Source: Selaginella tamariscina (taxonomy: Eukaryota > Streptophyta > Lycopodiopsida > Selaginellales > Selaginellaceae). From it: a DNA stretch of 64,000 bases. Of the stretch, positions 17,764-49,734 are shown piece by piece. The notes beneath the pieces are model-generated. The model saw only the letters and a program-made list of their open reading frames with translations. It did not search any database and had not been told where the DNA came from. The position numbers and the translations under genes were made by a program. The stretch spans positions 1,689,817 through 1,753,816 of the forward strand of contig PUQB01000003.1 of assembly GCA_003024785.1 (NCBI GenBank), written 5' to 3'. Numbering within the stretch: position 1 is the first letter of the stretch; every line of letters starts with the position of its first letter.

Positions 17764-17790
17764 ATGCACGTTGTAACTAAAATGGGCATG
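17764..17790 (+). repeat. Left terminal inverted repeat of a DNA transposon (copy 1)
   Basis: A 27-bp end beginning ATGCACGTTGTAAC and finishing GGGCATG. It is nearly the same as the ends at 20312, 23940 and 26302 and the reverse complement of the end at 42651-42677. The adjacent 17791-18400 is AT-rich subterminal DNA shared with the other copies. Confidence 0.7.
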
Positions 17791-19724: not shown

Positions 19725-20640
19725 GTGTTATTACTTTCAAGCACATTCACTATGTGTTGGGGGTGTGTGTGTGCATGTGTGCGCGTGTGTGAATATATGT
19801 GTGATTGACTACAATGTAAGTGGATGTGTATATCACATACATACACACAACATTATTCATGTGTACATTAGATGACATACTAGAGTTTAATAAGCCCTTC
19901 TATTTGGACCTTATGGGTACGAGCCACAAAGATTACTCTCTAGAACCAATAGACTGAACGGGTGGTACTCGTGAACCCAAAGAATAACAACAATTATATT
20001 CATTTACAATTGGGTCACATGAACGGGTCTTTATTACTAAATAGTTCAAGTATGAGGAGGATTAATCGGATCTCTAGACTACATTGAAACCAATTGTGAA
20101 TTCTTCAAATTAATGGACATTAATGGCGATCAATAGAGATTTAAATAGGAAACATTTTTGGCAAAGGTGCATTGGAGGATGGGAAACATAGTGTTCTAGC
20201 ACATCTAAAATGTAAAGATTTTGAAAATTTTACATTTAACATGTTTTCAAGTTTAACCATGTACAAGGGCTTAATACTTACCATTTACGAGTTTCATTTC
20301 AAACAAATCTAATGCACATTGTAATTAAAATGGCATGTTTATGGTCCTATTTTTTAGTAATATTAGCAATTTTAAATATTTAATTAACATTTTTTAATAT
20401 TAAAGAAATATTCTTTAGAATAATATATGTTTAAACAAAGATTTAAATAAATATTTATTAAATAATTAATTAAAAATTAAAATTTAAGTATTAATTAATA
20501 TTTATTTTCTATTCCCATTTTCTTATATCATGCCCATTTTAGTTACAACATGCATTCTACTAGGAACTATTTAGGTTTTCCCACATTATGCATATAAGAG
20601 CACTATTAATATTTACTCTTTAACTAGTGAACTTAATAAA
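19725..20640 (+). pseudogene. GH127 gene fragment, copy A
   Basis: The sequence aligns by eye with the 3' part of the host gene at 7034-10036. It starts at the end of its eighth exon, crosses the (GT)n-bearing intron, and continues through GATGACA..GAGTTT and the GACCTTATG..GATTACTCTCT region to the last exon (ATGAGTTTCATT). Coding frames are destroyed. A 244-bp transposon is inserted at 20312-20555. It keeps intron sequence, so it arose by DNA-level copying. Confidence 0.8.
20312..20555. mobile_element. 244-bp MITE related to the large DNA transposon
   Basis: The ends are inverted repeats (left ATGCACATTGTAATTAAAA; right the reverse complement of an ATGCATGTTGTAACTAAAA end). The element is flanked by TCTA at 20308-20311 and 20556-20559. 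The empty site with one TCTA is present in copies B (about 50831), C and D. Its termini and subterminal AT-rich sequence match those at 26302 and 42677, so it looks like an internally deleted derivative with no coding capacity. Confidence 0.88.
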
Positions 20641-23939: not shown

Positions 23940-26301
23940 ATGCATGCTATAATTAAAATGGGCATGTCTATAATCCCATTTCTTAATAATTAATCATTTT
24001 AATTATTTAATTAGCATTTTTAATATTAAATATATATTCTTTAAAATAATATATGTTTAAAGAAAGAATATTCTTTAAAATATATGTTTAAAGTTAGAAT
24101 ATTTTTTAGAACATTGACTCTTTATTAAATGATAGCATTGGTGAACAAAAAATTGATAATATTATAAAAGTAGAAAGTATTAAGCTATATAATAAATTAT
24201 ATTTAAGTATGAGCCTAATATAAAGTTATTAAAGAGCATGAGAGGTACATTATATAAATATTTATGTTGTTATTAAAATACTAATTTTTAAATATAACAT
24301 TAATTAAAAATTTATATATTAATATATATACAATTTTATATGGTCAATTTTCCATATCTTTTATAAATTTATATGGTTAAGAAAACAAATTGGTACTATT
24401 ATTAAAGAGTTGATTATAATTATAAATATATTTTGTAATTGTTTAAAGCTTCAGAAGACATACATTCTTTTGTAGTTTTGTTGATTGTGACTTTATTAAT
24501 GCTTTTTGATATGCACTCATATCAAATGGATTTAACATTTATAAAACATGTTGAGTTTTTTTTATTGTGAGACTATGTTTTCTCTAATTATTTATTATAC
24601 CTTTCGCTCTGCTTCTCATGTCGCCTTTTTGTGGTTTAAATCATGCAACCTTTATCATACTGTTTTTTTATGACTTTAGGTGTGTTGATAATTTGACCCA
24701 TTTAAATAGGCTAGTTATATGACACATCTAAAGTAATGAGAACGATCGTTTGTTTTTGAAGATCCTTGTAACAATTAAAGTATGGTTTAGGTTTCTGATT
24801 CTTTTATTCAACAAAGTATGGGATTTGCATTTCCACATCAATATTGGCTTTTATGTTATCTGCACTCATTGATGTTGTTTCAATCTCTTCCTACCACCTC
24901 GTTTTAGGTTAAAAAGGGTGTTGTAATTATATACTTATGACAACATGCCCTTATAACTCTTGAATAATAGTCTCCCAATAGTCGACCACATGCTTATATA
25001 GTTATGAGTAACTAATTGCCTTATCGAAATTCTTTGGCATCGATTTTGAACCCATTTCACATATTTTTTTATGTCATATAATAAGCTCTTGTTCCTTGAG
25101 TTGGGCACTCAATAAAATAGGGTTCGATTGTCCTTCTGGGAGAAGTGACTTTCATTCTCTTCACTTTTGAAGAGCATTAAGCCCTATTTGAGTAACCACT
25201 TTTATTATGATGGTCGTAACTTATACTGCATAATAAGTATACCATTTCTTATGGAGAAGAAGAATTGTAATGGCACAATGTGACCAATTAAAGAATTGCT
25301 TCCCTCTTTGATACTCTTTGAGAAACTTTTTGAAGTTTGGCACCTCGGTCACAAGCAAAGCACAACTTTTTTTGGAAATGTAATTTTCAAAAAGATCCAT
25401 CATATGTGGTAAGGTAAGTGCACTTTTTCGTTTTGTAGAGTTTGAGACGTTGCTAAGAATGCATCAATATCTTTATGAGTGTGACCAATCATAAGGAAAC
25501 TAAGCGTGATTATCTCAAATACACATTTGGCAATAAGCACTGACAAGTATGCTAGTACATATCTAAGAAATAAAAGTATGAGCTTGAAAACCCTTAACTG
25601 AAATGATTTACCTATTTTTGTTCTCGCCTGCACAATTGTCCATCTATAAAAGCAAACGGCGAGGAAACTTATTTGATGTTGATGACACTTGTACCCTGTA
25701 TGAGCTAGATCCCTCCACTGAACTGAAACTCTTAACAGGCCATTTATTTTTTGTGCAGGCTATTGACAGTGCCTCTCATATTCCCAAGTAGCCTCAAGTG
25801 CAAACATGTTCATGAGAGCATTATGTAAAGGTTGTTTCTTCACTTTGAGATCAACCATAGGACTTGTATATGAGTGGGCTTCAAGGTTTTTTAAACATAT
25901 GGCCAATGACCCAATAGTGAAATTGGAGTCGCTATACCATTACATAGGCTTGTGCAAAAACCTTGGTGGAGATCACTATCATTCAAAAGAAAATGGAGGC
26001 CCACATGATTGCACAACAAACTTGCCAGTTTCAGTATTATGCACACCGCATGCTTCTCTGTGTCATGCTCATCAGAATACATATGCTTCATATACGACAA
26101 GATGGATCGTTTAAAGACCAGCATTCCAAAGCTAGTTGTAACACCAAAGTGCCTTGGAAATGTCAAAAAACTTTCAATTTCATTGACATGTGCACACATG
26201 GACATGGTTGTGAATCATATGGACACTTTTCACTTCCACACTCTTCAATGATGTACAAGTGTCACACTTGAAAAAGCTAAAGTGTTTTGCAATCTCTATA
26301 T
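23940..26301 (-). pseudogene. Transposase-like (DUF7869-like) gene remnant, copy 2, C-terminal part
   Basis: A 27-bp terminal repeat (23940-23966) opens the copy on the left. Going right, the minus strand encodes, from C- to N-terminus: a VGHTH-type motif (FLMIGHTHKDIDAFL near 25500-25455), a central region with PRHFGVTTSFGMLVFKRS (about 26150-26090), and the CxxC-type motif KCDTC near 26260. Stops and frameshifts abound. The gene continues N-terminally at 42682 beyond the 16.4-kb insertion; copy B shows the uninterrupted arrangement. Confidence 0.7.
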
Positions 26302-26329
26302 ATGTAAGTTTGTAACTAAAATGGGCATG
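26302..26329 (+). repeat. Left terminal inverted repeat of the 16.4-kb element
   Basis: A 28-bp end beginning ATGTAAGTTTGTAACTAAAA and ending GGGCATG, preceded by the ATAT target duplication (26298-26301). Confidence 0.87.
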
Positions 26330-28929
26330 GCTATAGTCCCATTTCTTAATAATTAGTAATTTTAGCTATTTAATTAGCATTTTCTAATATTAAAGGAATA
26401 TTCTTTAGAATATATGTTTGAAAATAAAATATTCTATTTTGTATTCGACCCTTTAATAAATTATAGCATTCATTGAACAAAAATTAATAACATTATAAAA
26501 GTAGAAAGTATTAAATTATATAATATATTGCCTAATATAACAATTAAGGAAGAGCATAAGAGGTACATTATATAAATATTGATGTTGTTATTAAAAATAT
26601 TAATATTTAAATATAACATTATTAATTAAAAATTTGTAGTAGTAATAATATTATATAATATACAAAATCCTATAATAATATAGTCAATCTTCCATATCAT
26701 TTTTTAAATTTATATAGTTAAGTAAACAATTTGGTACTATTATTAAAGAGTTTATAATAATTATGAATATTAAATATATGATATTTTATAATTTGTAATT
26801 ACTTTAAGCTTTAGAAAACATACATTCCCTTGCAGTTTTGTTAATTGTGACTTTATCAACGCTTCTTGACATCCACCCATATCGAATGAATTTAACATTT
26901 ATAAACATGATGGGTCTTTTTTATTGGGAGACCATGTTTTCTCTAGACATCCATTATATCTTTCGCTCTCCTTCTTGTGTCGCCTTTTTTGTGGTTTGAA
27001 CTATGCAACCTTAAGAATACTATTTTTTGTGATTACTTCAGGTGTGTCGCTAATTTGACCCATCCAAATAGGCTGATTATATGACGCATCTGGAGTAATG
27101 AGAACCATCATTAGTTTTTGAAGATCCTGGCAGCAATCAAGTATGCTTTAGGTTTTTGGTTCCTTTGTCCAACAAAGTGTGGGGTTTACACTTCCACATC
27201 ACTACTGGCTTCTATGTCGTCTGTGCTCAGTGATGTCATTTCAATCTCCTCTCGCCACCTTGTTTTAGGCCAAAAAGGGTGTTGCAATTCTGTACTTGTG
27301 ACAGTAGGCCTTCCAACTCTCGAACAACAGTCTCCCATAGTCGACCACATGCTTATATAGTTCTGAGTAACCAGTTGCCTTATCAGAATTCTTTGGCATC
27401 GATTTTTGAACCCATGCCACATATTTTTTAATGCCATCAATAATAACCTCTTGTTCCTTGAGCTAGGCACTCAATGGAATGGGGTCTGGTTGTCCTTCTG
27501 GGAGAAGTGGCTTTCCATTCTCTCCACTTTTGAAGAGCATTAACCCCTCTTTTGGTAACACTCATGCTCTGATGGCCGTAACTTGTACTGCATAATAGGT
27601 ATACCATTTCGTATAGAGAAAAGAATTGTAGCGGCACAAGGTGACCAACTAAAGAATCACTCCCTCTTTTATATACTCCTTGAGAAATTTTTTGAAGTCT
27701 GGCACCTCAGTCACAAGCAAAGCACAACTTTTTTTGGAGATGCAGTTTTCAAAAAGATTCATCATATGTGATAAGGTAAGTGCATTGTCCTTTTTGTAGA
27801 GTTGGAGACCTTGCTGAAGAACGCATCAATATTTCATGAGTGTGACCAACCATAAGAAAACTGAGCGTGATTGTTTCAAAACACCTTTGGCAACAAGCAT
27901 TGACAAGTATGCTAGCACATATCTAGAAAAAAAGTAAGTATGAGCTTGAGAAACCCTTAAGTAAAATGATTTACCTATTTTTATCCATCTGTAAGAGCAA
28001 ATGACGAGGAAGCTTATTTGATGTTGAGGACACATGTACACTATTTGAGCTAGATCCCTCCACTGAACCTGAACTCTCAAACAGGGCCATCTGTTTTTTG
28101 TGCAGGCTACTGACAATGCCTCTCATATTCCCAAGTAGCCTCAAGTGCAGACGTGTTCATGAGAGCATTATGTAAGGTTGAAGGTGTTGTTTCTTCACTT
28201 TGAGATCACTGATAGGACGTGTCTGTGAGTGGGCTTCAAGGTTTCTGAAACACATGGCCAATGATCCAATAGTGAAATTGGAGTCACTAGACCAATGTGG
28301 AAGTGAAAAGTGTCTATATGACTCACAACCGTGTCCATATGTTAGCAACCTGTCAATGAAATCGGAAGTTTCATGACATTTCCAAGGCACTTTGGTGTTG
28401 CAACGAGCTTTGGAATGCTGGTCTTTAAATGATCCATCTTGTCATGGATCAAGCACAGGTTACTCTGATGGGCGTGACACAGAAAGCATGCGGTGTGCAT
28501 AGTATTGAGACCGGCAAGTTTGTTGTGCAATCATGTGGGCCTCCATCTTTTTGAATGGCAGTGATCTCCACTAAGGTTTTTGCACAAGCCTTACAGCCTT
28601 CAATGATGTACAAGTGTCACACTTGGAAAAGCTAGAGTGTTTTGCAATCTCCACATCCTTAAAATGAGTATTCCATATGTGTTGAAGGTACCAGTGCAGA
28701 TTGCTTGCAGCCTCATCAAGCTGAGGCATTTGTTCACATGTTCACACAGCTTCAATTGAGTGTAGATCGAAGGCAAAACCTTGAGATTTTCCCTGACCCC
28801 TGCATTTATGGTTCGGCATTTGTGAGGCATCCTGTCTGCAATTTGCTTCCACAAAAGCCTTGAGTATCTTTATGGCTGCCATAATGTGAGAGTGGGTTTT
28901 GACCAAGCGAGTGTTCCCTGTACTGAGGA

Positions 28930-31306
28930 TAGTGTGTGTGTGATTATGTAGTTTGAATTTAAATATAAATTAACTCTTAATTATTTTTTAACCATTTTCT
29001 TAATTATTTTCTTAATAATTTTAAGGTTGCTCGGGTGTACGTGTACACATAATTCTCACGCTCTTTGAAGATACATGTGATTGTTTGTATCAAACACTCC
29101 TTTTACATGCAGCACATAGACACGTAATGTCTAACAAAGACGCAACCTATGCATCATACATTATGTAAATGTATTTTTCAAGATAAACATTATTATATGT
29201 AGTGGAAACTTAAAGTTAAAACAAGTTGTATCTAAGTGAAATATGAGCTTATTTATTAAGTTCACTAGTTAAAGAGTAAATATTATTGCTTCTTATGCTG
29301 ATAATGTGGGAAAACTAAATAGTTTCCTAGTAGATTCGTTTGAAATGAAACTCGTAGATGGTAAGTATTAAGCCCTTGTACATGGTTAAATTCAAAACAT
29401 GTTAAAATGTAAAATTTTTTAAAATCTTTACATTTTAAATGTGCTAGAACACTATGTTTCCCATCCCCAATGCACCTTGGCCAAAAATTTCCTATTAAAT
29501 CTCTATTGATCGCCATTAATGTCCATTAATTTTAAGAATTCACAATTGGTTTCAATGTAGCCTAGAGATCCGATTAATCCTCCTCATACTTGAACTATTT
29601 ATAATAAAGACCGTTCATGTGACCCAATTATTCACCATCCCAATTGTAAATGAATATAACTGTTGTTATCCTTTGGTTCACGGTACCCCGTTAGTCTATT
29701 GGTTCCGAGAGTAATCTTTGTGGCTCGTACCCATAAGGTCCAAATAGAAGGGTTGTTAAACCTAATCTCATCTATAAGTCACAAATGTACACATGAATAA
29801 TGTTGTGTTGTATGTATGTGATATACACATCCACTTACATTTGCAGTCAATCACACATATTATTCACACATGCGCACAATGCACACCACACCCCAACACA
29901 TAGTGAATGTCTTGAAAGTATAAATAATTGGAAAGATGAATTGTAACATGTCTATTTTTTCCAAATCTTTTAAAGGATAAAGCACTCTCTAAGGGTTATA
30001 TCTTGAGGTTCGACACTATAATATGCTTGTGACTTGTAATCCAATATGGAACTCCGACGTTCAAAGTTGCCATTGTCCATTGCAATGCTAAGATGACCAT
30101 AACAACCTTTGAAAAATCAATAAGTCGTGGATTAGTCATCATTCACTGAATAGATTGCTTAAAATAAGTCTCCTAACCTTTCATCTTAAGGTGTTGAAGT
30201 TTAGGAGACTCAAGATTGAGAATGAGAAGTTAGGCCCCTAAATCATTGTATTATCTTCTAAATATATTGAGTATACAAGCTTAGAAAATAATTCAATACA
30301 TGCATAAACCATATGAATGCACATGCATACAAAAACACACACCAAGTATTTTATACTTGTTCACATAAGTGAATTAAATGGTGAGCCCTAAATTTTGCCA
30401 TGCCATGGCCCATAGCTAACATATATAACAGTTACCCATATTTGTATATGTAACTTCATATTATATATATAAAAAAAAATTAAAATATTTTTGAACTTAG
30501 GTCATTCAACCTTTGAATCCAATGAGAAGACCCCCTTTAGTTAGTGTTCAATGACATAGAAATAAAAGGATTTGCCTCGAAATAAGTAGAGAGTCTTAGA
30601 AACTGCAAAAACTAAACATGAAACCGATTAAATTTATGATTTATGTTTTATGTTTTAAATAAACTTAATTTAAATTTTTTTTAACATATCAAGTATTCAC
30701 ATAGATCGTGGACCTCAATCCCTTGGTTAAAATCGCTCTCCTTAGGCTTCTTCCCAATTTTACCATTTGCCTTCATATTCATATACACTTGTACACATGG
30801 AGTGTGTGGGTGTGTATGTACACCCACACCCCCACACACCTAATAATAGATTGTCCTAATTATATAATTAGCCAACCATAATACCTTTAGAACTTTTAAA
30901 ATATTTTATAATTAACTTTCGTATATACTTTAGCTACCTTACACTATCTCCCTCACGAGAAGAATTTCTTTAATCACGTAACATGGGTAACCAAAGAGGC
31001 TTCTTGAAACTCAACATTATGTACATGGTATATTTGAAGATTGATTTAATAAAGAATTTTATAAGGACCAAACAATTTTCATAAGCAACCTGGGGTGAGT
31101 CTTTTTGGTGAAGTTTCAAAAAAATATATTCATTAGTAGCAAATAAAGAAGGTGACTAATAACAAAATTATAACCATGTTGTGTGTTGAACTTGTGCCCA
31201 ACCTAAATGTTCTACTAAGGTAACATACATGCAAAAGAAAGAAACTTAATAAGTTGCCCAATAGCAAGCTTCTCCATACTTCAACTTCTAAATGCATTTG
31301 TAAGTC
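28930..31306 (-). repeat. Copy D: gypsy remnant plus GH127 fragment inserted in the transposase-like gene
   Basis: The stretch aligns, inverted, with copy B 48830-51240. The host gene reads up to GTACTGAGG at about 28929 and resumes with TAGCCACTCATCCC at about 31316; copy B (56820-56840) shows the two sides joined. It holds the 120-bp conserved phrase (29035-29160), the GH127 fragment, and decayed gypsy integrase/LTR-like DNA (about 30680-31306). It lacks the Pcf11-like gene. Confidence 0.8.
29290..30440 (-). pseudogene. GH127 gene fragment, copy D
   Basis: The minus strand aligns with host gene positions 8577 to about 9990, from the ATGTTGGCTATGGG..CATGGCATGG phrase (here about 30436-30400) through the retained (GT)n introns to the last exon. 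Frames are broken throughout. It lacks the 244-bp MITE seen in copy A. Confidence 0.78.
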
Positions 31307-32394
31307 CCTCTATCTAGCCACTCATCCCTCCGACAGTAGAACGTGGTCTTTGGGATCCCATATACTATACCAAGCTTTGAAGCAAATGGACACCTTATTA
31401 AATACCATGGTTGCACTCTGATAACCTGTGTCCGAGGCCATTCCATCAATATACCCAGTTAGTGCAGCATATACAAACTCATGCCTTTGCTTTTGGGTGA
31501 GCGTACGAAAGACATGTCTACATTGGGTAATTTCATTCCGGTCTTGCCATCTGACAACACTTCTTCTTGCAGTAGTCAATCGTGGAAATGCTCGTAACAC
31601 TTTCGGAAGATGTAGGATCATCTTGACCCTCTTGCTAAAATGCAGGGAAGATCTGCAACCCATGAATCGCCTTTTTCTTACAATAGGACCAATGCAAGGA
31701 ACCTCTTCAAATATGAGTTGTTCTTCCATGTTGTTATTATTGAAATCCAACCCAGAATATGTTGAACCATCTTGCCGTCTAATTCAGATGTTTGCCACCT
31801 CACGAGGGATCCAGGATGCAAAGTGCCATTTGTCACAACTACACCCACGAAGTCGGCCCTAGTTTCTCTTCTGACACTGCTTCCATTGGATTTTAGCTGT
31901 GATGATGCCTCTCCCAACCTCAATCTCATGAAGAAATAGAATCACCTCATCCATCACAACAGGCAAGCCATCATCTGGAAAACTCGTGCTACTGTTTGTT
32001 TGTGACTCTATATATTCTGTGTTAGCCTTGACTTCATCCAAATTCCACAATACAGGAGAACCCTCCTCAAATTCCATTCCCGGAACCTCAACATGCTTGA
32101 AAATGGTGTTCACCTATACGTACACACAAGATCCTTGGGCAATATTGTGACATGATGCATTATTCATCTCGAACTTCCCAGTTCCAGTGCCAACTATCTC
32201 GTTGTTCTGAAGAAGACATATTTTATCTCTAGTATTATACTATTGTCCTGCACATAAATAATGTTGTTTATTTATGATATTTGTTTATGTAAATTTTTAA
32301 GAAATCATAACTGCGGTTGCTTAATAATATGCATGTGCAATAATACATAATTATGTATAAAGATAATATCTCATGCTTTATTAATACAACTGAT

Positions 32395-33180
32395 GGGTGG
32401 GATTAATCCTGCCCACGACTCCATCCGATGGGGAATGATGGGCGGAATTAATCCGCCGCAGACTCTACCCCTTCGGAGTGAGTCGGCGGGATTATCCGCC
32501 GACGACTCTAGCCCATCGGAGAGTGTCGGGGGATTAATCCCACCGTCGATTCCCTCCCGCGAGGAAGAATCGGTGGGATTAATCCCGCCGTCGTACTTCC
32601 TCATCGGAGAGAGTGGCGGGATTAATCCCGCCGCGGACTCCCTCTGACCAGGAAGTATCGGAAGGATTTCCCGTTGATTCTTTCTCGTGGGAGGAATCGG
32701 CGGCGGGATTAATCCCGTCGCAAATCCCTCCGACGAGGAAGAGGGGCGGGATTAAATCCCGCCCACAACACTGAGGAAGGAGAATAGGCGGCGGGATTAA
32801 TCCCGCCTACAACTCTTGATGACGGGGAATAAGCGGCGGGATTAATCCCGCCCACAACTCTTTTGAAATTTATGATTTCAAAGAGATTCGGGATGATCCT
32901 GCTCATAAATATTTAAAATAGGAAAGTGGTGGTGAGATTAATCTCGCCACTCCTTCTCTGCCTCTTAAAATGGTTGGCGAGATTAATCCTGTATATAACT
33001 TTTTTTCAATAAATTTAAGTAACTCTTTATCAGTTGAGAGAGTTATCGGCGGGATTAATCTCGCCGCTCTTTTTAAAAGGCGGAGAAGCATTGCCCGGAC
33101 TAATTTTGTTATAGTATCAAAGAGATGGTGGCGGGATTAATCCCGCCACCTTTCAAATGGCCGGATTAATCCTGCCGCCC
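32395..33180. repeat. Palindrome array 1 (core GGCGGGATTAATCCCGCC)
   Basis: About 17 copies of an 18-20 bp perfect or near-perfect palindrome, all centred on ATTAAT. Centres of the first eleven: 32404, 32449, 32493, 32535, 32580, 32623, 32665 (weak), 32710, 32754, 32798, 32843, giving a spacing of 42-45 bp. Further copies at about 32894, 32939, 32984, 33056, 33101 (weak), 33138 and 33167 keep partly to the same step. The DNA between palindromes varies and is GC-rich at first, then AT-rich. The array contrasts strongly with its AT-rich surroundings and lies just upstream of the divergent transposase-like gene. Confidence 0.93.
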
Positions 33181-33229
33181 CGGCTAACCGAGAATATTAA
33201 GTTAGAAGTATATTTAAATAGGATAAATC

Positions 33230-34560
33230 CCTAACATAATATATTGTAATCCTAATGCATTCCTAAATCCCTAAATTCTAAAATTTAAGAGAGAATGTAA
33301 GAGAGTGAATCTTTATAAATATATTTAAATTTGTTTATAATACTTACTTGTAAACAGCACTGGAAGGTGCCGTGCTTTCCTATAAACAATAGCACACCCA
33401 ATTTAATGTCGCTTCTGAGCTGATCACTAAGAAGAAAAAAGAAAATTTGAAGAATGAAAAATAAAGAAATGAAGAAACCCTTACTGGAGAAGAACCAAAT
33501 CTGAAATTTGAGTGGGAAATTAAATACATTTTCAAATTTACATGTCAGACCGATAATATTTATGTCAGAAATTCGAAATTTTTGAAATAACAGAAAAAAA
33601 AATTTAAGATGATTGAAACAAATAATTGACAGTCTGACATATATACTTTCCAATTCCGATGAGTGTTTTAAAATTGCATTTAATGTCATTCAAGTGCTTC
33701 AAGCTATTTAATATTACGAAATTTTTGTAATTATTCTACATTCTTTAATATTCAAGTATATATTATTAAGTTATATTATATATATATATATATATTATAT
33801 TATATATATATACACTAATACATAAATAATTTGATATATTATTATGTTCATTTCAAATATATTCATAGTCTGTTTATTATTATTATTTCTTAATTACTCA
33901 AGTAATTAATTTACATTTCCTACTATTAATGGGATATCTTTATTATTTTCTTAATAGTCGAAGAATATTCCAATATTAACCTGATTATCATAATTAAATT
34001 AGTCTTATTCTTAAATATTTCAGTAATTATTCTACATTTGTAATATTAATGGGATTTATCAATTAATTTGTTATTATTTCAAGAATATTCCTATGTTAAC
34101 CTTATTATCAATATTAAATTAATATATATTATTAAAACTAAATATGACTATATATTATATAAAATGATGTATTATTATGTATAATTTAAAATATGTTCAT
34201 AGTGTGTTATTAATAATTTCTTAATTACTTGAGTAATTAATCTTCTTTATATTAATGGGATTTCTTTTATTTTTCTTATTATTCCAAGAATATTTCAATA
34301 TTAAACATGATTATCATAAATAATTTAGTTAATTATTTCAGTACTTGATCTACATTTGTATATTTAATGGGATTTTCTCAATTAAATTCTTATTATTTCA
34401 AGAATATTCCAGTGTTTAAACCTTATTATCAATTATTAAATTATATATATTATTAAACTATATATGGCTATATATTAGATAAAATCATATATTATTATGT
34501 AAATATGTTCATAGTGTGTTTATTATATTAATTTCTTAATTATTCGATGTTTGTTTTGCA
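33230..34560. repeat. AT-rich tandemly repeated DNA
   Basis: From about 33720, related blocks recur that combine ATTAATGGGATTT with CAAGAATATTCC and CTTATTATCAAT, at about 33930, 34050, 34255 and 34368, spaced roughly 115 and 205 bp alternately. A TA tract lies at 33778-33812. The 134-codon ORF on the minus strand at 33285-33689 is low-complexity and not accepted as a gene. Confidence 0.55.
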
Positions 34561-34699
34561 CACATTATATAAACACAATTATAAATTTATATATACACGT
34601 GCACACGCATTAGAAGCACTTACAGAGACACATATGCACACACATGCACATTGCCTTAAACCAAAACTTGATAAATTATATGTTGCTTCTTTATTGAAA

Positions 34700-35460
34700 A
34701 CATCATGTTCAATGCATGTATGATCTATATGTACTCAGTCTGTGTGTATGTAACACATTGAATTTATACATGTAATATATATGTATATCTGTGTGTATAC
34801 ACATGTGTATGTATATATGTGTAATATATGCAATGTGTACGATTTCATTTGTTAACACTCTATCTTTTCTCTCATACATACACAGTGTCACCATGCATAA
34901 TCCCTTCTCTCATACATACACACCATGCATGATCATAATCCATAATATGTAGCCTGTCTCTTTTCTCATACATACAACCATGCATGATCATAATCCATAA
35001 TATGTAGCCTGTCTTTTTCTCATACATACACACCATGCATGATCCATAATATGTACTGATGTTACAATATTATGTAATATATATAATGTATATCTGTGTA
35101 TAACACTCACTCCTCTCATACATAAACACCATGCATGATCCATCCTAACCCTAACCCTAAACCTAAACCCTATGTAACACATTGAATTTACACATGTAAT
35201 ATTATGTATGTCTGTGTGTATACACGTGTGTATGTATATGTGTGGTACTAATATATGCAATGTGTATAAATTTAATTTGTTAACACTTTTCTCTTCTCTC
35301 ATACATACACACCATGCATGATCCATATTAATATGTACTGTCTCTCTTCTCTCAAACATACACACTATGCATGATCCATAATATGTATTGTCACTATTCT
35401 CTCATACATACACACCATGCATGATCATGTACTCTCTCTCTCTAATTTAATATGTACTAA
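34700..35460. repeat. Tandem repeat of about 55-60 bp with telomere-like insert
   Basis: Units containing CATACATACACACCATGCATGATC and ATAATATGTA recur near 34870, 34915, 34970, 35030, 35115, 35305, 35360 and 35410. Between them, at about 35145-35172, lies a short CCCTAA-type run with degenerate members, resembling plant telomeric DNA. No gene is seen. Confidence 0.7.
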
Positions 35461-35469
35461 TATGTATGT

Positions 35470-35970
35470 ATGTTATGTGTATAATACGTGTGTATATATG
35501 TATCGCTGCACGTGAAACTTTAACACTCTCATGGACACACACATGTTAAACCCCTACCTGATTTTTATTCTTAGGGTGTATGTGATACACCCACGCACAG
35601 TATATGCTGATAATTTAATGAAAGAATATTTGTTTAGGGCAAATCTATAATTTATTCTTTTAGGGTTTAAATATATTCTTAGAAGGAATATTCGATTAGA
35701 GTTAATATATATTCTATTCCTTTTAGGTTTAAGTATATTCCTAGGGTTTCAAGAAGTAAGGCGGTGGAGGCGGCGGCTGTGAAATCTCCTTCTCTCTCTC
35801 ACACACAGGTGAGATCTCTCTCTCTTCACACGTTGTGCACTCCTGAGTTTATTTTATTTTTATTCACATATATATTTATATGTGTGTGTATCTTAATAAT
35901 ATAATTTAGATTTCTATCTCTTGCACACACATGCACACTCGTATACATATACACACCACACACATATATA

Positions 35971-36015
<45 letters not shown>

Positions 36016-36700
36016 GTGTTTGTGTATCTGTATAATTTTATTAATTTATTAATTTTATCTCTTGCACATGCACGCACACTCCTGTTTATCTGTATGATTT
36101 TATTTGTTATGCATACTCACGATATACATACACACACACACACATATATATATATACCTATATACATATAATATACATACATATATTATGTGTACCAGTA
36201 TCTGTATAATTCTATTTATTTATTTATTTCTCGCACACACACCAACACTCCTATACACACACACACACACACACACACACATATGTGTGTGTGTATCTGT
36301 ATAATTTTATGATTTGTTAATTGTATCTCTCGCACACACACGCACACTCCTGTATATATATATATGTGTGTGTGTATGTTTGTTTATCTGTATGATTTTA
36401 TTTGTTTCACACACGCATACACACGATATACATATACACATATATATATATATACCTATGTACATATATACATACATATATTATGTGTACCATATCTGTA
36501 TAATTTTATTTATTTATTTATCTCTCACACACACACGCACCTCCTGTATATACATATAATATACATAATATACATATACATATATAGTGTGTGTGTATCA
36601 GTATAATTTTATCTGATTTGTCTATCTCGGTACACACACGCACTCTCCTACACACATATACATATACACACACACACTATATATATATGTGTGTGTGTGT
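35470..36700. repeat. Microsatellite field (CA/TG and TA)
   Basis: Many (CA)n, (TG)n and (TA)n tracts occur, such as 35983-36015, 36125-36160, 36256-36296 and 36670-36705, arranged in loosely repeated blocks with TCTGTATAATTTTAT phrases. All ORFs here are shadows of these repeats. Confidence 0.8.
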
Positions 36701-36705
36701 GTGTA

Positions 36706-37540
36706 GCGGCGGATTAATCCTGCCGCTATGGTGAGACGTATAGCGGCGGGATTAATCCCGCCGCTATATGGTGAGACGTGTGTAGGCGGGATTAATCCCA
36801 CTGCCATTTCAGGCAGGTTATTCGGTTAGCCTATGAGCGGCGGGATTAATCCCGCCGCCTAAGATGCCCTGTGAGAATCCGGCGGGATTTATTCCGCCGC
36901 CATTGCCCTGTCTGAAGGGCCTAGGGGGGATTAATCCCCGGATTCACCAGGGCATTGGCGTCCGACGGGATTAATCCCGCTGCATAATGCCCTGCGCGGA
37001 ATCGGGCGGATTTATCCCGCCGCCAACCTGCTGAAGGCCTAGGCGGCGGGATTAATCCCGCCGATTCCTGCAGGGCAGGCGTCGGGATTAATCCGCCACG
37101 CAGGGCAATTGGCGTCCGCGGGATTAATCCCGCGCATAGGGACCGAGTGAAGGCCTGGGCGGCGGGATTAATCCCGCCGAGCCTTCAATGCCTGTTGGAG
37201 GAATGAATCCCGCCACCCTTCCTTTTTTCTCCATTGGTGAGTCGGACCAATCCCAAACGTTTCTGTCTGAGACGTAGAAGGTTTACAACATACCAATGGA
37301 GGACTGGGAAGGGTGGCGAGATTCATTTAACCATCCCTTACATGGTGGGCGAGATTAATCCCGCCTCCTTTCTGGAGTCACTGAAGGGGTGTGAAATAAA
37401 TCCTGCCAGTTCTCTCTGAGACCGAGAAGGGTGGCAAGATTAATTCCGCACTCCCGTTCAAGGCCTCCAGAAAGGTGGCGAGATTAATCCCGCCCACTCT
37501 TTCAGGAGGCATTGAAGGGGTGGCGAGATTAATCCCGCCG
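36706..37540. repeat. Palindrome array 2 (core GGCGGGATTAATCCCGCC)
   Basis: About 18 further copies of the same palindrome. Centres near 36715, 36753, 36793, 36847, 36889, 36932, 36972, 37012, 37053, 37089, 37125, 37169 and 37206 have a mean spacing of about 41 bp. More diverged copies follow at about 37356, 37398 (weak), 37441, 37495 and 37530. Intervening DNA includes repeated CAGGGCATTGGCG / AAGGCCT phrases. The array ends about 340 bp before the start codon of the ParB/methyltransferase-like gene. Confidence 0.93.
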
Positions 37541-37653
37541 CACCTTCCATGTGAATATATATGTGTATTAGTATATATAAGTTGCATATCTCATTTTATT
37601 TACTTTTATCATCTTATCATAATATTTCGAGTAAAAGCTAGGAATCTATGTAA

Positions 37654-37740
37654 AACTGTCCAGAGCTCACATTTGTGGTGGTTCTAAAACGAAATGTTAT
37701 CTTTCTTTTGCACTAGCACAAATGTGAGCTTTGGACAGTT
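37654..37740. repeat. Inverted repeat / potential hairpin, 24-bp arms
   Basis: The left arm 37654-37677 (from AACTGTCCAGAGCTCACATT) and the right arm 37717-37740 (to GAGCTTTGGACAGTT) pair at 23 of 24 positions, with a loop of 39 nt. It lies between array 2 and the start codon at 37881, so it would be in the leader if transcribed. It could be a small-RNA precursor-like hairpin, a regulatory stem or a tiny foldback element. Confidence 0.85.
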
Positions 37741-37880
37741 AATTCCGTCCTTCTCTCTGTGTATTATTTTTGTATATTCGGGTTTATACAAGTGTGTGTG
37801 CGTTTTTATATGATTTGTATTCATAGTGTATTATTTTGCAGAAGGACGATTTAATTAAACAAGGAGATCGAGTCATTAGT

Positions 37881-40868
37881 ATGGAGTCGTCGTCAAATTC
37901 TGGGTAAGAATTAAAATAAAATCTGTTATACTCGGATATGTGCTTGAACTAATCATTTTTGTATTCAGATGTGGAATTGAGGTGACATTAAAGACGAGCA
38001 GGAGAAGAGATGGGCAGGGGGATTCTGGAATCAACTTGGCCATATTTCAAACTAAACGGGAAGCGCATTGGAACAACCATGGTTGCTGTCAAACTAACCT
38101 CTGTCACATCGCATGGACAAGCAAAACAATGGAAAGTGGGTGTGCTAGTCAAGCATCCGAAAGCATGCTGTGAACCCAGATTGAACGATGCTCGACACAT
38201 ATGCCTTGTTCCATCCAATGTCACGTTCTCGGATCCAGAGGTCGCAGTTACAACATTAATTTCGGGTGGTTTTGTCGACTTGTGGATAATGACGTTCACG
38301 TGTTCACTAATGATGTTGACCTTGGGTTCTTCTTCAACTCAACGAAAGCCCATCTATGGAGGGGATCCATCTGGATGTCTACTTCGAAGATCTTCAGACT
38401 CATCGAGTAGGTGTATTGTCAGGAGATATTGCTTCACAATACAGAAAATCCACAAGTGGAGCAATCGTCCCTCTTCACATTGAAGAAGAACACAGCGACA
38501 TCATAAAGGAGATTGAGAGGGTGGCTTGGTCTCAGGTTCTTTACAGATCACGTTCAATTTGCTTAGAAATTTCGGGAGCTGGAAGAGTGTGCCGAGAACA
38601 TTAGAACAGCATCAATCGGGGATCACACATGTTGATTCGGATCGTAGAAGAAAATCATCATCGTTTTGTCAGCTGCACCTGTGGCATCCCATGCTGCAAT
38701 AAGCCACAAGGAAATGATGTTGGATGATAGGATTTACGAGTGTAGGGTTAAGTATTGCAGCGTCAACCCAAACTTCAATTACAGGCCACTCAACAGGAAC
38801 GTGTAGCTGAGCTCATGGAGAAGATGAAGGACGACAATTCTTACACCGTTCCACATAATGCTGTTTTGTGCGCATACTACGAGAGAAACAAAGGCGCTGA
38901 CAAAGTGTGGATCACAACACCGGAACAAATGAGGAAGGTTCAGACAGGAATAGAAAATCAGTTAAGTACTTACATCATTAGTGGCCAGCACACAATAACG
39001 GCAGCCCAACGACTTCTCGATGAACACAACAAAGGAACGATGGCAACAAAACTTTCCGAGCATACCCGTGAGAAGCTGACGAAAAATCGGCGTTTTTAGC
39101 GAAGCCGAATCTCACAATCGAGCAGTACCATAAGTTATCGGCGGAATGGGACGCTGCAGACACCAACCACTACAACAGCAAAATATGGGAGAAGTTCAAA
39201 CACACGCGAGCCGTGTGGGAATCTCTTCAGCGACCACAAAGAGCTACCGCAGGGAATACACAATCTGCGGACTACCGGGTAAGCAAATTGTTTGGGCGGG
39301 ATTTATCTCGCCGGTATATTAATCTGTCTTTTTTTAGAGAGTTGAAGAAATTGTAGCAGTTGATTTTGCCCAGGTGGGCGGGAAGGAAACATCCTTTTTG
39401 ATGATGTTGATTTCTTGTCCCGAGGATAGGATCTTTGCCAAATGGTTGGGGATTATGGAATCCTTTGCAAAAGGAACACTGAAGAAGAAGCAGACAAGTG
39501 AAGGGAGCCCTCAGAGAAGTCTGCAAAGAAACCCAGTAAGACGCCGAAGGCTAAGTCTGTTCAATCTATAAAGGATGTAGACAACGATTTCAAGCTCACA
39601 TGGTTGAAGCCTTTAAATGGAACAACGATGGAGGAGATGGAAGTCTTGGCTGATTTGGTGATTGATGGCAAATTACAATTAACAACAGCAGCCCACCTCT
39701 CCTTTTCATCTCAAGGCAATGGAGTTGAAGACGGTCAGGCACTTCAAGGAGTGGTTGGGAATACACTGCCACAAACTGGGTTGGACCTCGCTTCAACATA
39801 CGAAGAGGTCAGCAAATATTTGCATGTGACAACGATGATATGCTTGTCGAATGGGTGAATCAATCGGAAGATCTGGGCAAGAATCTATTGCACGCCAACG
39901 CCAAAAGGAGAACATTGCGATGACGCCTTCTCTTATGGCAGTCCTTCAGCAGCGGAGAACCGAGTTGAACCTTATAAAGGAGGATGCTACGAATCACGAC
40001 AAGCCCTACAGATGTTTGTTGTTGGATTCGGAGACTTTATGGGGTACCATCACTGCTTGTAGGAAACCGTTTCAATTGTTCGTGATGGATCGGCGGGTGT
40101 CAAAAAATCCTTCGACAGACAGGACTAGAGGATTTGGTGGAGAAACTTAGCCGTGCAAGCATGTACAAAGAAGGTATTTATTATTGAATTCATACTTGCA
40201 CTCTTGACTGATATCTACGTTTTCAGGTATTTATTTCTTGATTCTTGCTCATGTCACCGATACTTTGCCTTCGCCTTTGCCAAGAGGAATAAACATCGTT
40301 GGACAGGATTTTATATGAATGATGCTGATCCGAAGTGCATTGATTCGGTTGTTCACTTGGTTGTTAGGAATGCGCCAAACAATTTCAAACTTCCAAATGA
40401 CTGGCCAGGCATCTGTTTGCACTCCAACGGCCCTGAACCTCCATCCGATACACCGATAGGTGAGAGTGACGTATTCGGCAATGTACGTTATCCAAACATT
40501 ACAAGTCAAGCGGCACGGAGCATCGTCAACTTGATCAGGGGTCCTCACAGTGATGCGTGGGTTTTTGACTACTGCACTAGGGGGTCCGTCTTGAAGGAGT
40601 GTTACCTTCGGCATACATGTGTGTTTGCCGTTGAAAAGGATAAGACCATGGTTGAGGACCTGAACAAGTGGATAGAGAGGTTCTCAACTGATACCCCAAC
40701 AAACCATAAAGGAGTATTTGAGAAAGTTCCCTCCAGATAAGTGCGATAGCTCTGAAGACGAATCTGGTTCAATGTCGGAGTCTGAGGACGAACTTCAATC
40801 AGATATTAGACCGGAAGTTATCTCGAGGAGTACAGAACATTCACACAATGGAAACATCAATAGAAGAT
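37881..40868 (+). CDS. ParB-like domain plus DNA-methyltransferase-like protein, multi-exon, frameshifted
   Basis: MESSSNSG (37881-37904) ends at a GTAAG donor and the next exon begins near 37970. An unrecognised N-terminal region follows (KVGVLVKHPKACCEP near 38136). A ParB-like segment comes next: NPNFNYRPLN (38765-38794), QQERVAELMEKMKDD (from about 38793), VPHNAVLCAYYE, and YIISGQHTITAAQRL (38971-39015). The last resembles the GxxRxxAA box of ParB N-terminal domains, with His-Thr where Arg is usual. After a helical linker and a 59-bp intron (39279-39337), the C-terminal part has ITSQAARSIVNLI, then VFDYCTRGSVLKECYLRH and VFAVEKD (40561-40635). This fits the late-placed AdoMet motif I region of permuted DNA methyltransferases, whose pattern is D-x-F-x-G-S-G-T. 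I could not find a clear DPPY motif, and the glycine pattern is not canonical. An acidic Ser/Asp/Glu tail follows after a frame change near 40735. Both domain calls are by eye, and function is inferred. Confidence 0.5.
39294..39314. repeat. Single copy of the palindrome inside an intron of the ParB/methyltransferase-like gene
   Basis: GGGCGGGATTTATCTCGCC lies in the 59-bp intron 39279-39337 (donor GTAAGC, acceptor TTTTTTTAG). It is the only copy seen outside the two arrays. Confidence 0.8.
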
Positions 40869-41039
40869 AGAAGATCTTGAACCATCTCACAAGCGGCTTA
40901 GACCTTCTTCGCCTCACTCAGAAGGTAATAGAAGAAGAATTGTTAATGAGTTCTTAGAGTGACGAATAGTTGTAAATGAGTGTAACATAAGGCATTTTTG
41001 TATATTTCGTTTATATTTGTACAGAAAATAAATTCTCAA

Positions 41040-42101
41040 GGATTAATGAAGCTTTTAGTTCAAACATGGGTCACACATTAACAAGGTAAATAATATACCT
41101 TGATAATTTTAAGGTCAGCTAATTATCATTTTGCAGATGTAATGAAACAATTGAGAACATGGATTTTCAGCATTGCCATGAGGTAAGAGAGGGGTTTGGC
41201 GAAATTTCTTGTGCCACATGTCAGAATGACAGAGTTCATGCAGGAAATGGATAATAATGCAGCTCAAAACATCGTTACCATGGGGGCCACTTCAGTTTTT
41301 TCATCATTTTTTATTGGCTTCAGTTCCGAAATCAATTTCTTCAGCGCATGCAATATCTGAATCTTGTAAGGATGATGTACAATTAAATGATGAAGGGATA
41401 GGCAACGAGATAGTGGCAACGATAAATGTGAAAGGGAGCAAACAAGTGATTTGCAAAGTATTCAAGAGGCAACGCTATCCATGTTACTCATGGCCATATT
41501 GTGTTGTTGGATGTCAATGGTGTTCTGCTTCATCGACAAAGGCCCGAGGATAGGAAAAAAGAAATCAAACAAGGAGATTTCATTCCTTGTCATGGTAAAT
41601 TTCGATATGATATTATTTTTCGTCCAGGGTTGGATCGTCTCTTTCAAAAGCTTAAGGAGATGGGTGCGCTTGTGGGGATTTGGTCATGCATGCAGATTCA
41701 TAACTTAACACCGCTGTTGAATTTGCTTAAGAAACATTGTAGTGTTGCAGAAGAGGTGATTCGTAAAGATTGGATTTTTGACCAGCGAATGTTTAAACCT
41801 CTCGAATTTCACAATATAAAAAGGAAAGCAAGCCATACTTCTTCAAGAATGAAAGAATAATTGGGACTCATGGGGAGATCAGTCGCTTAAGGATAATGAA
41901 GAATGCACATATCTTAGTGTAGACGACTCTCCTCAGAAGGCTATGCTCAACCAAAACATTGCTTGTATTCATCCAATCACTTTCGATCCATATTCTGATA
42001 CCGATATCATGGATGAGCTAGTGAACTACTTGGATACGTGCCTCAGAAAGAAGAATCTCGAAAATTTTGTGAGCAGTATCCACCGTATCAACATTTCCTG
42101 A
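41040..42101 (+). CDS. FCP1/SCP-like HAD phosphatase gene carried in the element
   Basis: The core reads VLLDVNGVLLHRQRPEDRK (from about 41498), then YDIIFRPGLDRLFQKLKEMG, VGIWSCM (about 41676), VIRKDWIFDQRMFKPL, and after a frame change near 41830, VDDSPQKAMLN (41919-41951), ending INIS and a stop at 42099. This is the layout of FCP1/SCP (NLI-interacting-factor) HAD proteins, which dephosphorylate RNA polymerase II tails or other proteins. The usual DxDxT is here DVNGV, so the second Asp is replaced by Asn. Plant homologues with D-L/V-N-G exist, but catalysis is doubtful. Upstream exons near 41050-41200 (donors at about 41084 and 41186) are tentative. It could be captured host DNA or a core element gene. 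Confidence 0.6.
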
Positions 42102-42632
42102 AGCTTTTTTTCTCGTGATTTTGAATTTTATAAAATGAAGGATAGCAACCGGGCGCTTTATAATATTATTCTTAAGGAACGTCATTTTTAGATGAGCCTT
42201 TATGCAGACCTGGTCTTATTACATCTTATGTATTAACAAGGATGGCAACTCCCAATTGCATTCGTGAGAGTGTTAAGGTGGTGGCAACAACATCAAGATA
42301 TTGACCAAAATGATTTGATTAATCCGGAGAGTGATGATTTAGACAAAATGAGAAGATTTCTTGTATGGTTAGGAAGAAAGTATTTATAAAAAATTAACAT
42401 GTTGATAAGAAAATGATTTCATTTGTAATTATGTTTGATAGTATTTCTTCATTATTGTAAACTATTTTTAGAATAATATGAATATTCTAAGATATTTTAG
42501 GAATATTCCTTACTAAGTAAGGTTATTGAAGGATTAATTAATTAATTAATTAATATTTAAGGCTTAATTACATATTAATTAAATGATTAATTAATAATTA
42601 AAACTTAAGTATTAATTAGTAATTTATTTTAT
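42102..42632. other. Right subterminal region of the 16.4-kb element
   Basis: A short open stretch ending near 42388 (RVLRWWQQHQDIDQNDL, then MRRFLVWLGRKYL) may be the tail of a decayed gene that I do not recognise. From about 42540 the TTAATTAA-rich sequence matches the subterminal part of the 244-bp MITE (20450-20510). Confidence 0.45.
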
Positions 42633-42650
42633 ATTCCCATTTTCACGTAT

Positions 42651-42677
42651 CATGCCCACTTTAGTTACAACGTGCAT
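42651..42677 (-). repeat. Right terminal inverted repeat of the 16.4-kb element
   Basis: CATGCCCACTTTAGTTACAA continues to GTGCAT at 42677, the reverse complement of the left end type, followed by the ATAT duplication (42678-42681). Confidence 0.87.
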
Positions 42678-42681
42678 ATAT

Positions 42682-44160
42682 ATTGTTAAAGGTGCCGGTG
42701 TAAATTGTTTGGAGCCCCATCAAACTGAGGCACTTGTTCACATGTTCACACAACTTCAATTGAGTGTAGATTGAAGGCAAAACCTTGAGATTTTTCCTAC
42801 CCCTACATTTGTGGTACGACATTTGTAAGGCATCCTATTTGCATTTGCCTTCACAAAATCCTTGAGTATCTCTATGACTACCATAATGTGAGAGCAGGTT
42901 TTGACCAGGCAAGTGTTCCCATGTATTGAGGTGTAACCACTCATCCCTCCGGTGGTAGAACATGGTCTTTATGTCCAAGGCCATTCCATCAATACACCCA
43001 GTTAGTGCAACATATACAAACTCATGCCTTTGCTTTTGGGTGAGCTTATGAAAGGCATGTCTACATTGGGTAATTTCATTCCAGTTTGCCATTTGGCAGC
43101 GCTTCTTCTTGTAATAGTCAATCATGGAGATGCTAGCAATGCTTGGTGACATCTTGACCCTCTTTCCGGAACTTGTTAGGGTTGACTTGCAGTCCATAAA
43201 TCTCATGTTCCTTATTATAAGACTAATGCAAGGAACCTCTTCAAACATGGGTTGCCCTTTTGGGTTATTACTATTATACCTTGGATATGTTGAATCATCT
43301 GGCCGTTTTTAATTTAAATGTTCGCCACTTCACGAGGGATCCAAGATGCAATGTACCATTTGGTAAAACCTCTGTCACAATACACCCATGAAGTTCTCTT
43401 ATGATACAACTTCCATTGGATTGACAGCTAAGATGATGCCCCTCCCAACCTTGATTTCATAAAGAAAGAGAATCACCTCATCCCTCACAGTAGGTAAGTC
43501 ATCATCTTGTGAATTCGTACTAATATTTGTTTATGACCATGCATTCTTTGTGTCAACCTTGATTTCATTCACATTTCACAATACTAGAGAACCCTCTTCA
43601 AATTCCATTTTAAGAATCTCAACGTGCTTGTAAATGATGTTTACTTAAATATATACACACAGACCCTTGGGCAATATCATAACATGACGCATTATCATCT
43701 CAAATTTCCACAGTTCCAACGCCAACTATCTCATTGTTCTAGAAAAGATATACTTTATCTTCAATATTAAACATATTGACTCGCACATAAATATTTGTGT
43801 CATTTATGATATTGAGTTGCAGCTCCATGTATTCTCACATCAGATTTTTAACATTATACTTAAGTGTACTTGGTTGAATGCATGTAAGGCAAGTTGTCAA
43901 TCTGGGCCTCAACAATTAATACTTTCATGTCATTCACCTTTTCCTTTGGATAAAGTTCCTCTCAAGTGGTGTGGAGCAGTTTTGTGAAGTGTAATCATGC
44001 ATGAGCTGGATGATTTAGCAGTTGTGTTCTCAACATCAAGGAACTTTGGAGATGTGCAGGTGATAACTGAATCATCTTCTTTACAATGAGAGTTCTTGAT
44101 ACAACAATTACTAAAGAAGTATTTAGATCTTTTCTTTATACATATCACCCCTATTGATAA
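42682..44160 (-). pseudogene. Transposase-like gene remnant, copy 2, N-terminal part (continues from 26301)
   Basis: The minus strand reads on from the KCDTC side: WLHLNTWEHLPGQNLLSHYG (about 42950-42890), CRHAFHKLTQKQRHEFVYVA (about 43065-43005), and MFEEVPCISLIIRNMRFMDC upstream to 43248. An N-terminal region with PKFLDVENTTAKSSSS follows to about 44148. It is nearly identical to copy B 56582-58120. Together with 23940-26301 it forms one gene interrupted by the 16.4-kb element. Confidence 0.72.
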
Positions 44161-48838: not shown

Positions 48839-49230
48839 ATGTGTCTATTTAAAGCATTGTATGGGCAAGACTTACAAATGCCTTTAGAAGTTGAAGTATG
48901 GAGAAGCTTGCTATTGGGCAACTTATTAAGTTTCTTTCTTTACTGCATGTATGTTACCTTAGTAGAACATTTAGGTTGGGCACAAGTTCAACAACAACAT
49001 GGTTATAATTTTTGTTATTGGTCACCTCCTTTATTTACTACTAATGAATACATTTTTCAAAACTTCACCAAAAAGGACTCACCCCAGGTTGCTTATGAAA
49101 ATTGTTTGGTCCTTATAAAATTCTTTATTAAATCAATCTTCAAATATACCATGTACATAATGTTGAGTTTCAAGAAGCCTCTTTGGTTGCCCATGTTACG
49201 TGATTAAAGAAATTCTTCTCGTGAGGGAGA
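48839..49230 (+). mobile_element. Gypsy integrase C-terminal remnant, copy B
   Basis: A 122-codon open stretch includes LFKALYGQDLQMPLEVEV and ends in FKKPLWLPMLRD. It parallels the intact-looking integrase at 63943-63394 (FKALYGRDPRMPPEV). Reading into 49232, TGTAAGGTAACTAAAG resembles the start of the LTR at 63398-63196. Confidence 0.75.
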
Positions 49231-49734
49231 TAGTGTAAGGTAACTAAAGTATATATGAAGGTTAATTATAAAATATTTTAAAAGTTACTAAAGGTATTTA
49301 TGGTTTGGCTAATTATATAATTAGGACAATCTATTATTAGAGTGTGTGGGTGTGTATACACACCCACACACTCCATGTGTACAAGTGTATATGAATATGA
49401 AGGCAAATGGTAAAACTGGGAAGAAGCCTAAGGAGAGCGATTTTAACCAAGGGATTGAGGTCCACGATCTATGTGAATACTTGATATATTAAAAAATAAT
49501 TTAAATTAAGTTTATTTATTAAAACATAAAACATAAATTTAATCGATTTCATGTTAGTTTTTGCAGTTTCTAAGACTCTCTACTTACTTCGGCAAATCCT
49601 TTTATTTCTATGTCATTGACACACTAATCTAAGGGGGTCTTCTCCTTGGGATTCAAAGGTTGAATGACCTAAGTTCAAAATATATTTAATTTTTTATATA
49701 TATAAATATGAGATGTACATATACGGTAACTGTT

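Follow-up and report, generated by a model that had tools for sequence, protein, structure and literature searches.

The 64,000-nucleotide stretch of the Selaginella tamariscina genome that we analyzed (assembly GCA_003024785.1, contig PUQB01000003.1, positions 1,689,817 to 1,753,816 of the forward strand; "the window" below, numbered from its first letter) contains two arrays of an 18-bp palindrome, and these arrays are internal parts of a DNA transposon of about 14 kb with terminal inverted repeats (TIRs). The transposon has two divergent genes, a putative transposase gene (gene 1) and another that we call gene 2, and an array lies upstream of each. We interpret the arrays as promoter-proximal, probably intronic platforms for a dimeric regulator, which would most likely be encoded by the element and be VANC-like or TnpA-like. 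This interpretation draws on analogy with other transposons, and we think that it has about an even chance of being right.

The arrays lie as follows.

32396 to 33176, no strand: array 1, with 17 palindrome sites.
36708 to 37539, no strand: array 2, with 19 palindrome sites.

The 36 sites come from a gapped scan of the window with a threshold score of 10 (a perfect site scores 36). A first-pass annotation, made from the letters of the window, had reported about 35 palindromes in two arrays, and this is borne out: an ungapped search for the 18-mer that allows 3 mismatches gives 25 matches in the window, among them one at 39295-39312 (described below), as compared to a mean of 0.00 in 100 shuffles. 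Four of the 36 array sites are weak (scores of 10-14) and overlap the reach of the background, as the same gapped scan gives 23 scattered matches outside the arrays with scores of 10-13. The annotation was also right about the spacing within the window, where the steps are mostly 43-45 bp in array 1 and 33-54 bp in array 2 (with one gap of 118 and a median near 41). Across six copies of the transposon and 8 further copies of array 2, the median of the steps below 60 bp is 45 for array 1 (n = 73) and 44 for array 2 (n = 196), so the step of 41 is particular to the window's copy.

Both arrays are within one copy of the transposon.

26302 to 42677, forward strand: full-length copy of the DNA transposon (16,376 bp, of which a foreign insert makes up 2.4 kb), identified by its TIRs, its matching 4-bp flanks, and its co-linearity with copies on contig C1.
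26302 to 26328, forward strand: left TIR, with one inserted base in this copy.
42652 to 42677, reverse strand: right TIR.
26298 to 26301, no strand: target-site duplication ATAT, left.
42678 to 42681, no strand: target-site duplication ATAT, right.

We found other copies by comparing the window with 200 kb of contig C1 sequence, taken from around its palindromes. (W is the window's copy; A, B1, B2, C, D, and E are other copies in the genome, and L-numbers mark stretches read from it.) The six complete copies are 11.9-16.4 kb long, including 2,500 N in copy E. All six have imperfect 26-bp TIRs, and the element's ends read ATGCA...TGCAT. The 4-bp target duplication is exact in four of the six (W, B2, C, and E), with ATAT in W and TTAT, ATAA, and ATGT in the others; copy A has one mismatch, and no match is readable in copy D.

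The first-pass annotation had raised the question of whether the arrays recur in other copies and whether the palindrome keeps to the element. All six complete copies have the arrays (in copy E, a run of N covers array 2). The stretches that we read from contig C1, which were picked around palindrome sites, contain 101 exact sites, and all of them are in element copies; the main family accounts for 96 of them and one diverged copy for the other 5. We then took the first 20 left ends after contig C1 that were exact to a 36-bp pattern, ignoring palindromes and skipping one left end on C34 that had no room. In 17 of these 20 loci (1.4-1.5 kb read at each), array 1 was at the expected place with at least 5 sites. 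The remaining three (L047, L049, and L054) came from elsewhere in the element and are therefore silent on whether an array is present. The 28,120 bases that were read at these loci hold 151 exact sites, or 5.4 per kb, as compared to 0.09 per kb genome-wide.

In the entire 300.7-Mb genome, the exact palindrome occurs 27,128 times, and a control pattern (the palindrome read backwards) does not occur. The left end of the element, with up to 3 mismatches, occurs 968 + 892 = 1,860 times (control, 0). These left ends include deletion derivatives such as the one at 17764-20555 of the window, and the element's copy number appears to be well over a thousand.

The arrays have a regular position relative to the genes, which are laid out as follows.

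26812 to 32245, reverse strand: gene 1, whose counterparts in other copies have a DUF7869 domain (PF25273); its ends are approximate and come from aligning it with those counterparts.
28929 to 31307, no strand: foreign insertion that interrupts gene 1 in the window's copy.
32248 to 33347, reverse strand: predicted leader intron of gene 1, which holds array 1 (by inspection, donor ACAA/GTAAGTATT and acceptor TGTGCAG/GACAAT, with the slash at the junction).
33190 to 36700, no strand: AT-rich segment between the arrays (GC 0.27), where the first exons and the promoters of both gene 1 (reverse strand) and gene 2 (forward strand) are predicted to lie.
35809 to 37841, forward strand: predicted leader intron of gene 2, which holds array 2 (by inspection, donor CACACAG/GTGAGATC and acceptor TTTTGCAG/AAGGACG).
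37654 to 37741, no strand: separate hairpin with 24-bp arms, between array 2 and gene 2.
37881 to 40740, forward strand: gene 2, multi-exon, with an approximate end; indels break the window's copy.
39279 to 39337, forward strand: coding intron of gene 2 (59 bp) with a lone palindrome, predicted from the sequence.
39295 to 39312, forward strand: the lone palindrome, GGCGGGATTTATCTCGCC, from an ungapped pattern scan and outside the span that was first annotated.
41100 to 42100, forward strand: gene 3, with a NIF-type phosphatase domain; ends approximate.

In all five copies in which the ATG of gene 1 was found (the window's copy, with its altered ATG, is not among them), array 1 begins 151-152 bp upstream of it. 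For array 2, the gap between its end and the ATG of gene 2 is 338-340 bp in 5 of 5 copies, copy E being left out for its run of N. These distances are fixed while the number of sites varies, from 14 to 18 in array 1 and from 13 to 30 in array 2. About 3.75 kb separate the arrays from the element's left end, and 5.0-5.2 kb from its right end.

Both arrays are probably inside leader introns, because the donors lie beyond each array and the acceptors lie just before each ATG. The donor for gene 1 is present in 9 of 9 main-family sequences, and the acceptor is intact in 8 of the 9 (L026 differs). For gene 2, the donor is clear in W, B2, B1, and L024 and recognizable in A and C; it was not found in copy D (copy E has a run of N there, and stretch L026 ends before it). 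The same search found none of these splice sites in the diverged copy. We also asked if the palindromes could be a coding repeat, readable as a repeating peptide. We rejected this for array 2, whose steps spread over all three frames (59, 70, and 67 of 196). In array 1, 45-bp steps dominate and 38 of 73 steps are divisible by 3, so the frame test does not exclude a coding repeat there.

The lone palindrome in the coding intron of gene 2 scores 28, and the strongest other matches outside the arrays in the window score at most 13. Its position is shared by A, B2, C, D, B1, L024, and 8 of 8 further copies (L029-L036). In the diverged copy, it has decayed to 6 mismatches. A different repeat in stretch L018 (C1:1818287-1819850) has several sites with a GGATAAATCC core, which is like the variant core of the lone site.

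The pattern of conservation within the palindrome looks like DNA recognition by a protein rather than an RNA hairpin, because the would-be loop bases of the RNA are the most conserved, distinct sites show no significant surplus of paired changes, and G-U pairs have no advantage. Among 202 sites from the six main copies (selected at no more than 5 mismatches), conservation is 92-100% in the central ATTAAT and 83-97% in the arms. Among 102 distinct sites with an intact core, no pair of arm positions has a significant excess of complementary bases (p = 0.22-0.98). If duplicates are counted, then arm pairs 2, 3, and 4 of the main copies become significant (p = 0.01, 0.03, and 0.001), and so does pair 4 of the one diverged copy (p = 0.0035, or 0.12 on distinct sites), due to five GGCCGGATTAATCCGGCC sites. 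This duplicate-driven covariation probably reflects amplification from a few events. In distinct sites, G-U pairs are not more common than A-C mismatches (41 vs. 49 and 12 vs. 17). Given the conservation of the loop and the missing compensation, we rejected an RNA hairpin as the main constraint.

The diverged copy keeps the consensus. (We read it from stretches L027 and L022, which we took to be one copy that is interrupted by copy D.) Its gene 2 is 77.7% identical, or about 22% diverged, and its arrays are rearranged, yet its 35 sites have the identical 18-bp majority sequence. Each position of ATTAAT is conserved in 34-35 of the 35 sites, and positions 4 and 15 are mixed. These sites were preselected (no more than 6 mismatches and an A/T-rich center), which favors conservation of the center. 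Within the fixed parts of the arrays, across 5-6 copies, palindromes differ about half as often as spacers do (0.045 vs. 0.092 and 0.011 vs. 0.024).

The spacers are related to each other. In array 2, a spacer is similar to the inverted complement of the one that lies two units away (z = 8.6) and, in direct orientation, to those 2 and 4 units away (z = 4.7 and 5.2); in array 1, spacers resemble their neighbors in both orientations. Judging from these resemblances, the spacers derive from each other by direct and inverted copying followed by decay, and the arrays probably grew by tandem and inverted duplication. As RNA, array 2 of the window folds more strongly than 20 shuffles of it (z = -25.6). 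Shuffling the letters of the spacers while holding the palindromes fixed weakened the folding in 7 of 7 arrays (z = -10 to -21; the longest array was cut at 1,000 bases), and permuting the order of the spacers cost less (z = -0.7 to -5.0).

If the arrays are platforms for a dimeric regulator, then each 18-bp site (core GGATTAATCC) would offer a dimeric DNA-binding protein a target with two-fold symmetry, and a row of sites upstream of the transposase gene and gene 2 would allow cooperative loading and joint control of both genes. We infer that the factor is most likely VANC-like or TnpA-like and made by the element, with gene 2 as the first candidate. Such a factor would keep the element's own copies unsilenced or autoregulated. 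The first-pass annotation had also favored a binding platform over ordinary satellite DNA. The position of the arrays, their association with copies of the element, and the consensus in the diverged copy support that view. Two of the arguments that it gave do not hold up: paired changes that keep the symmetry are not in excess among distinct sites, and the sequences between the palindromes, which it had described as not conserved, are related to each other, many of them as inverted copies.

Several results weigh against our interpretation. Gene 2 has no recognizable DNA-binding domain, and no match in Pfam or NCBIfam reaches the cut-off. A simple binding-site model leaves the foldback of the spacers unexplained. 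In the fixed part of array 1 across 21 copies, the core, arms, and spacers have 0.026, 0.031, and 0.039 substitutions per cell, which is a small difference. A hint in favor of our interpretation comes from methylation: the ratio of observed to expected CpG is 1.18 and 0.94 in the two arrays, as compared to 0.48 outside the element. Gene 1 has a ratio of 0.38, gene 2 of 0.80, and the gene-3 part of the element of 0.71. If most palindromes are removed from the arrays, their ratio drops to 0.81, close to that of gene 2. This is weak support for undermethylation, because the excess in the arrays lies largely in the palindrome itself. Across 11 copies of gene 2, transitions affect 22 of 2,871 cells at CpG sites and 52 of 13,673 other G/C cells, which fits a genome with CpG methylation.

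The alternative that survives best, which we consider somewhat unlikely, is a passive foldback satellite, in which palindromes and spacers multiply together by slippage and inverted duplication during replication and are not used by any protein. It would account for the kinship of the spacers in both orientations, for the weakened folding once their letters are shuffled, and for palindromes that are hardly more conserved than spacers in the 21 recent copies. It does not predict that the same consensus would persist in a copy that is about 22% diverged in gene 2 and has rearranged arrays, or that the distances to both start codons would stay fixed while the number of sites varies. Nor does it predict a lone palindrome in a coding intron in the main-family copies that we read, although this site has decayed in the diverged copy.

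Two other explanations seem unlikely to a greater degree. In the first, a host transcription factor uses the sites, and the element copied host operators to gain expression. The sites of plant GARP proteins and K50 homeodomains contain GATT or TAATCC, and a short symmetric core with variable arms, upstream of both genes, would suit a host factor. On the other hand, such long arrays that are tied to one family of elements suggest co-evolution with a protein from the element. The second, about as doubtful as the first, is a stronger form of our own interpretation: the element would have a self-contained system for anti-silencing or chromatin loading, in which the gene 2 protein loads on the twin intronic arrays and keeps well over a thousand Sola-like transposon copies active, while the genome's tens of thousands of sites jointly serve as a sink for that protein. 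We also considered a ParB or methyltransferase fold for gene 2 and set it aside, as the resemblance was by eye only and had no support from HMMs or PDB.

It is improbable that the arrays are sites where the transposase binds to assemble or regulate the transposition complex. CACTA elements do have multi-site arrays near their ends that bind transposon proteins (PMC2613891). The arrays studied here are not subterminal, and palindrome arrays are missing from the 2.8-kb derivative at 17764-20555 (its closest 18-mer has 7 mismatches), even though it retains both TIRs. This derivative is 83-86% identical to parts of the gene-1 side of the element, and its 4-bp duplication is inexact. Least probable of all is a function of the folded leader-intron RNA in splicing or as double-stranded RNA, which the strong folding of the window's array 2 and the placement of the arrays and the lone site in predicted introns would suit, and which the conserved loop bases, the lack of compensatory excess among distinct sites, and the lack of a G-U preference argue against.

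The conserved D, D, and HED motifs of gene 1, identified by eye, suggest that it encodes a transposase of the DDD/E type. Its open reading frames match PF25273 in copy E (E = 1e-26) and copy D (E = 2.8e-12), and we found 54 relatives among metagenome proteins, at 30-49% identity. In the window's copy, the start codon is altered and the frame is broken, and the broken pieces have no match in Pfam. The insertion at 28929-31307 is missing from that place in 8 of 8 other copies compared (L009, L012, L015, L017, L020, L023, L024, and L026), whose alignments to the window skip from about 28928 to 31308. The insert is a repeat, with more copies in the window at about 49000-51250 (inverted) and 61170-63200 (same orientation). 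Fragments that resemble the gene-1 side also lie at 42678-43812, which adjoins the right end of the element, and again at 56582-57916, about 14 kb on.

For gene 2, the best 40 of 3,264 first-look candidates are the window itself and 39 further copies at 94-98% identity. A 203-amino-acid piece of gene 2 has no homologues at E ≤ 0.001, and a read-through of the gene with X at the joints has none at E ≤ 1 (7,999 candidates scored). We compared 11 copies of gene 2 (L029-L036, W, B2, and C) to their majority sequence and found 12-34 indels and 6-30 substitutions per 3.4 kb. Indels outnumber substitutions in 10 of the 11 copies and also in the eleventh, B2 (34 vs. 30), so we do not claim that these are pseudogenes, and we call the genes of the element neither dead nor intact. 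Frame breaks in individual copies may be assembly errors, as uncorrected long reads would give; this explanation is insecure because just 1-6 indels per copy are in runs of three or more.

The hairpin at 37654-37741 appears as a self-inverted match (query 95-181) in 35 of the 40 best listed copies of gene 2. Gene 3 matches PF03031 both in the window (piece 41450-41860, E = 1.4e-8) and in copy E (E = 5.1e-12), and its NIF-type phosphatase domain was perhaps captured from the host. Rfam has no match at 26000-43000. In our literature search, the core string occurs in one unrelated paper, DUF7869 was not found, and palindrome arrays in transposons were not found among the papers listed, as judged by titles and the starts of abstracts.

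Several known systems resemble parts of this element. ParB acts at parS, palindromic sites of about 16 bp of which there are several in a row, and this element also has several palindromic sites in a row. The pieces of gene 2, which are broken, have no match to the ParB family in Pfam at E up to 1. Sola transposons have TIRs and a 4-bp target duplication, can exceed 15 kb, and are known in moss (PMC10741241). The TIRs, the 4-bp duplication, and the length of over 10 kb of this element fit Sola; the domain match in gene 1 is to PF25273. The description of Sola transposons in PMC10741241 that we drew on does not mention palindrome arrays.

In CACTA (En/Spm) elements, subterminal repeats in multiple copies are bound by TnpA, which can act on transcription and on excision (PMC2613891). 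Both kinds of element have a motif in multiple copies, which in CACTA is bound by a DNA-binding protein of the element. Here, the arrays are not subterminal, the duplication is 4 bp instead of 3 bp, and the ends are ATGCA...TGCAT instead of CACTA/CACTG. We rejected CACTA ends: loose matches to CACTACAAGAAA number 16 in the window, as compared to 9.5 expected (1 of 100 shuffles reached 16), and none is at the ends of the element. The tnp2 domain was not found in the open reading frames of gene 1, and one of its metagenome relatives (P0002) has a sub-threshold match to TNP1/EN/SPM (E = 6.6e-4, 19.9 bits vs. a cut-off of 21).

By analogy, the element would work most like the VANDAL/VANC system, without itself belonging to the VANDALs, which are MULEs of Arabidopsis. 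A VANC protein binds a short motif that is repeated in tandem, and evolves fast, in noncoding regions of the VANDAL that encodes it (PMC5735166), and this binding removes silencing (PMC5735166 and PMC10398659). This element also has tandem arrays of a motif in predicted noncoding regions, as judged from splice-site inspection and, for array 2, from the frames of the steps. In contrast to VANDALs, it has a perfect 18-bp palindrome, a 4-bp duplication, a DUF7869 gene, and arrays at fixed distances from two divergent gene starts. We recognized no VANC protein in the element, and the open reading frames of gene 1 contain only PF25273 and no Mutator-type transposase domain. In the papers that we drew on, sequence-specific anti-silencing by a transposon protein is described for the VANDALs of Arabidopsis. 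If our interpretation is correct, this would be a second design, in which the site is a palindrome, the two arrays stand at fixed places ahead of two divergent genes, and the transposase is of another class. The many near-identical copies with arrays of varying length would then be a natural test of how the number of sites relates to expression and silencing.

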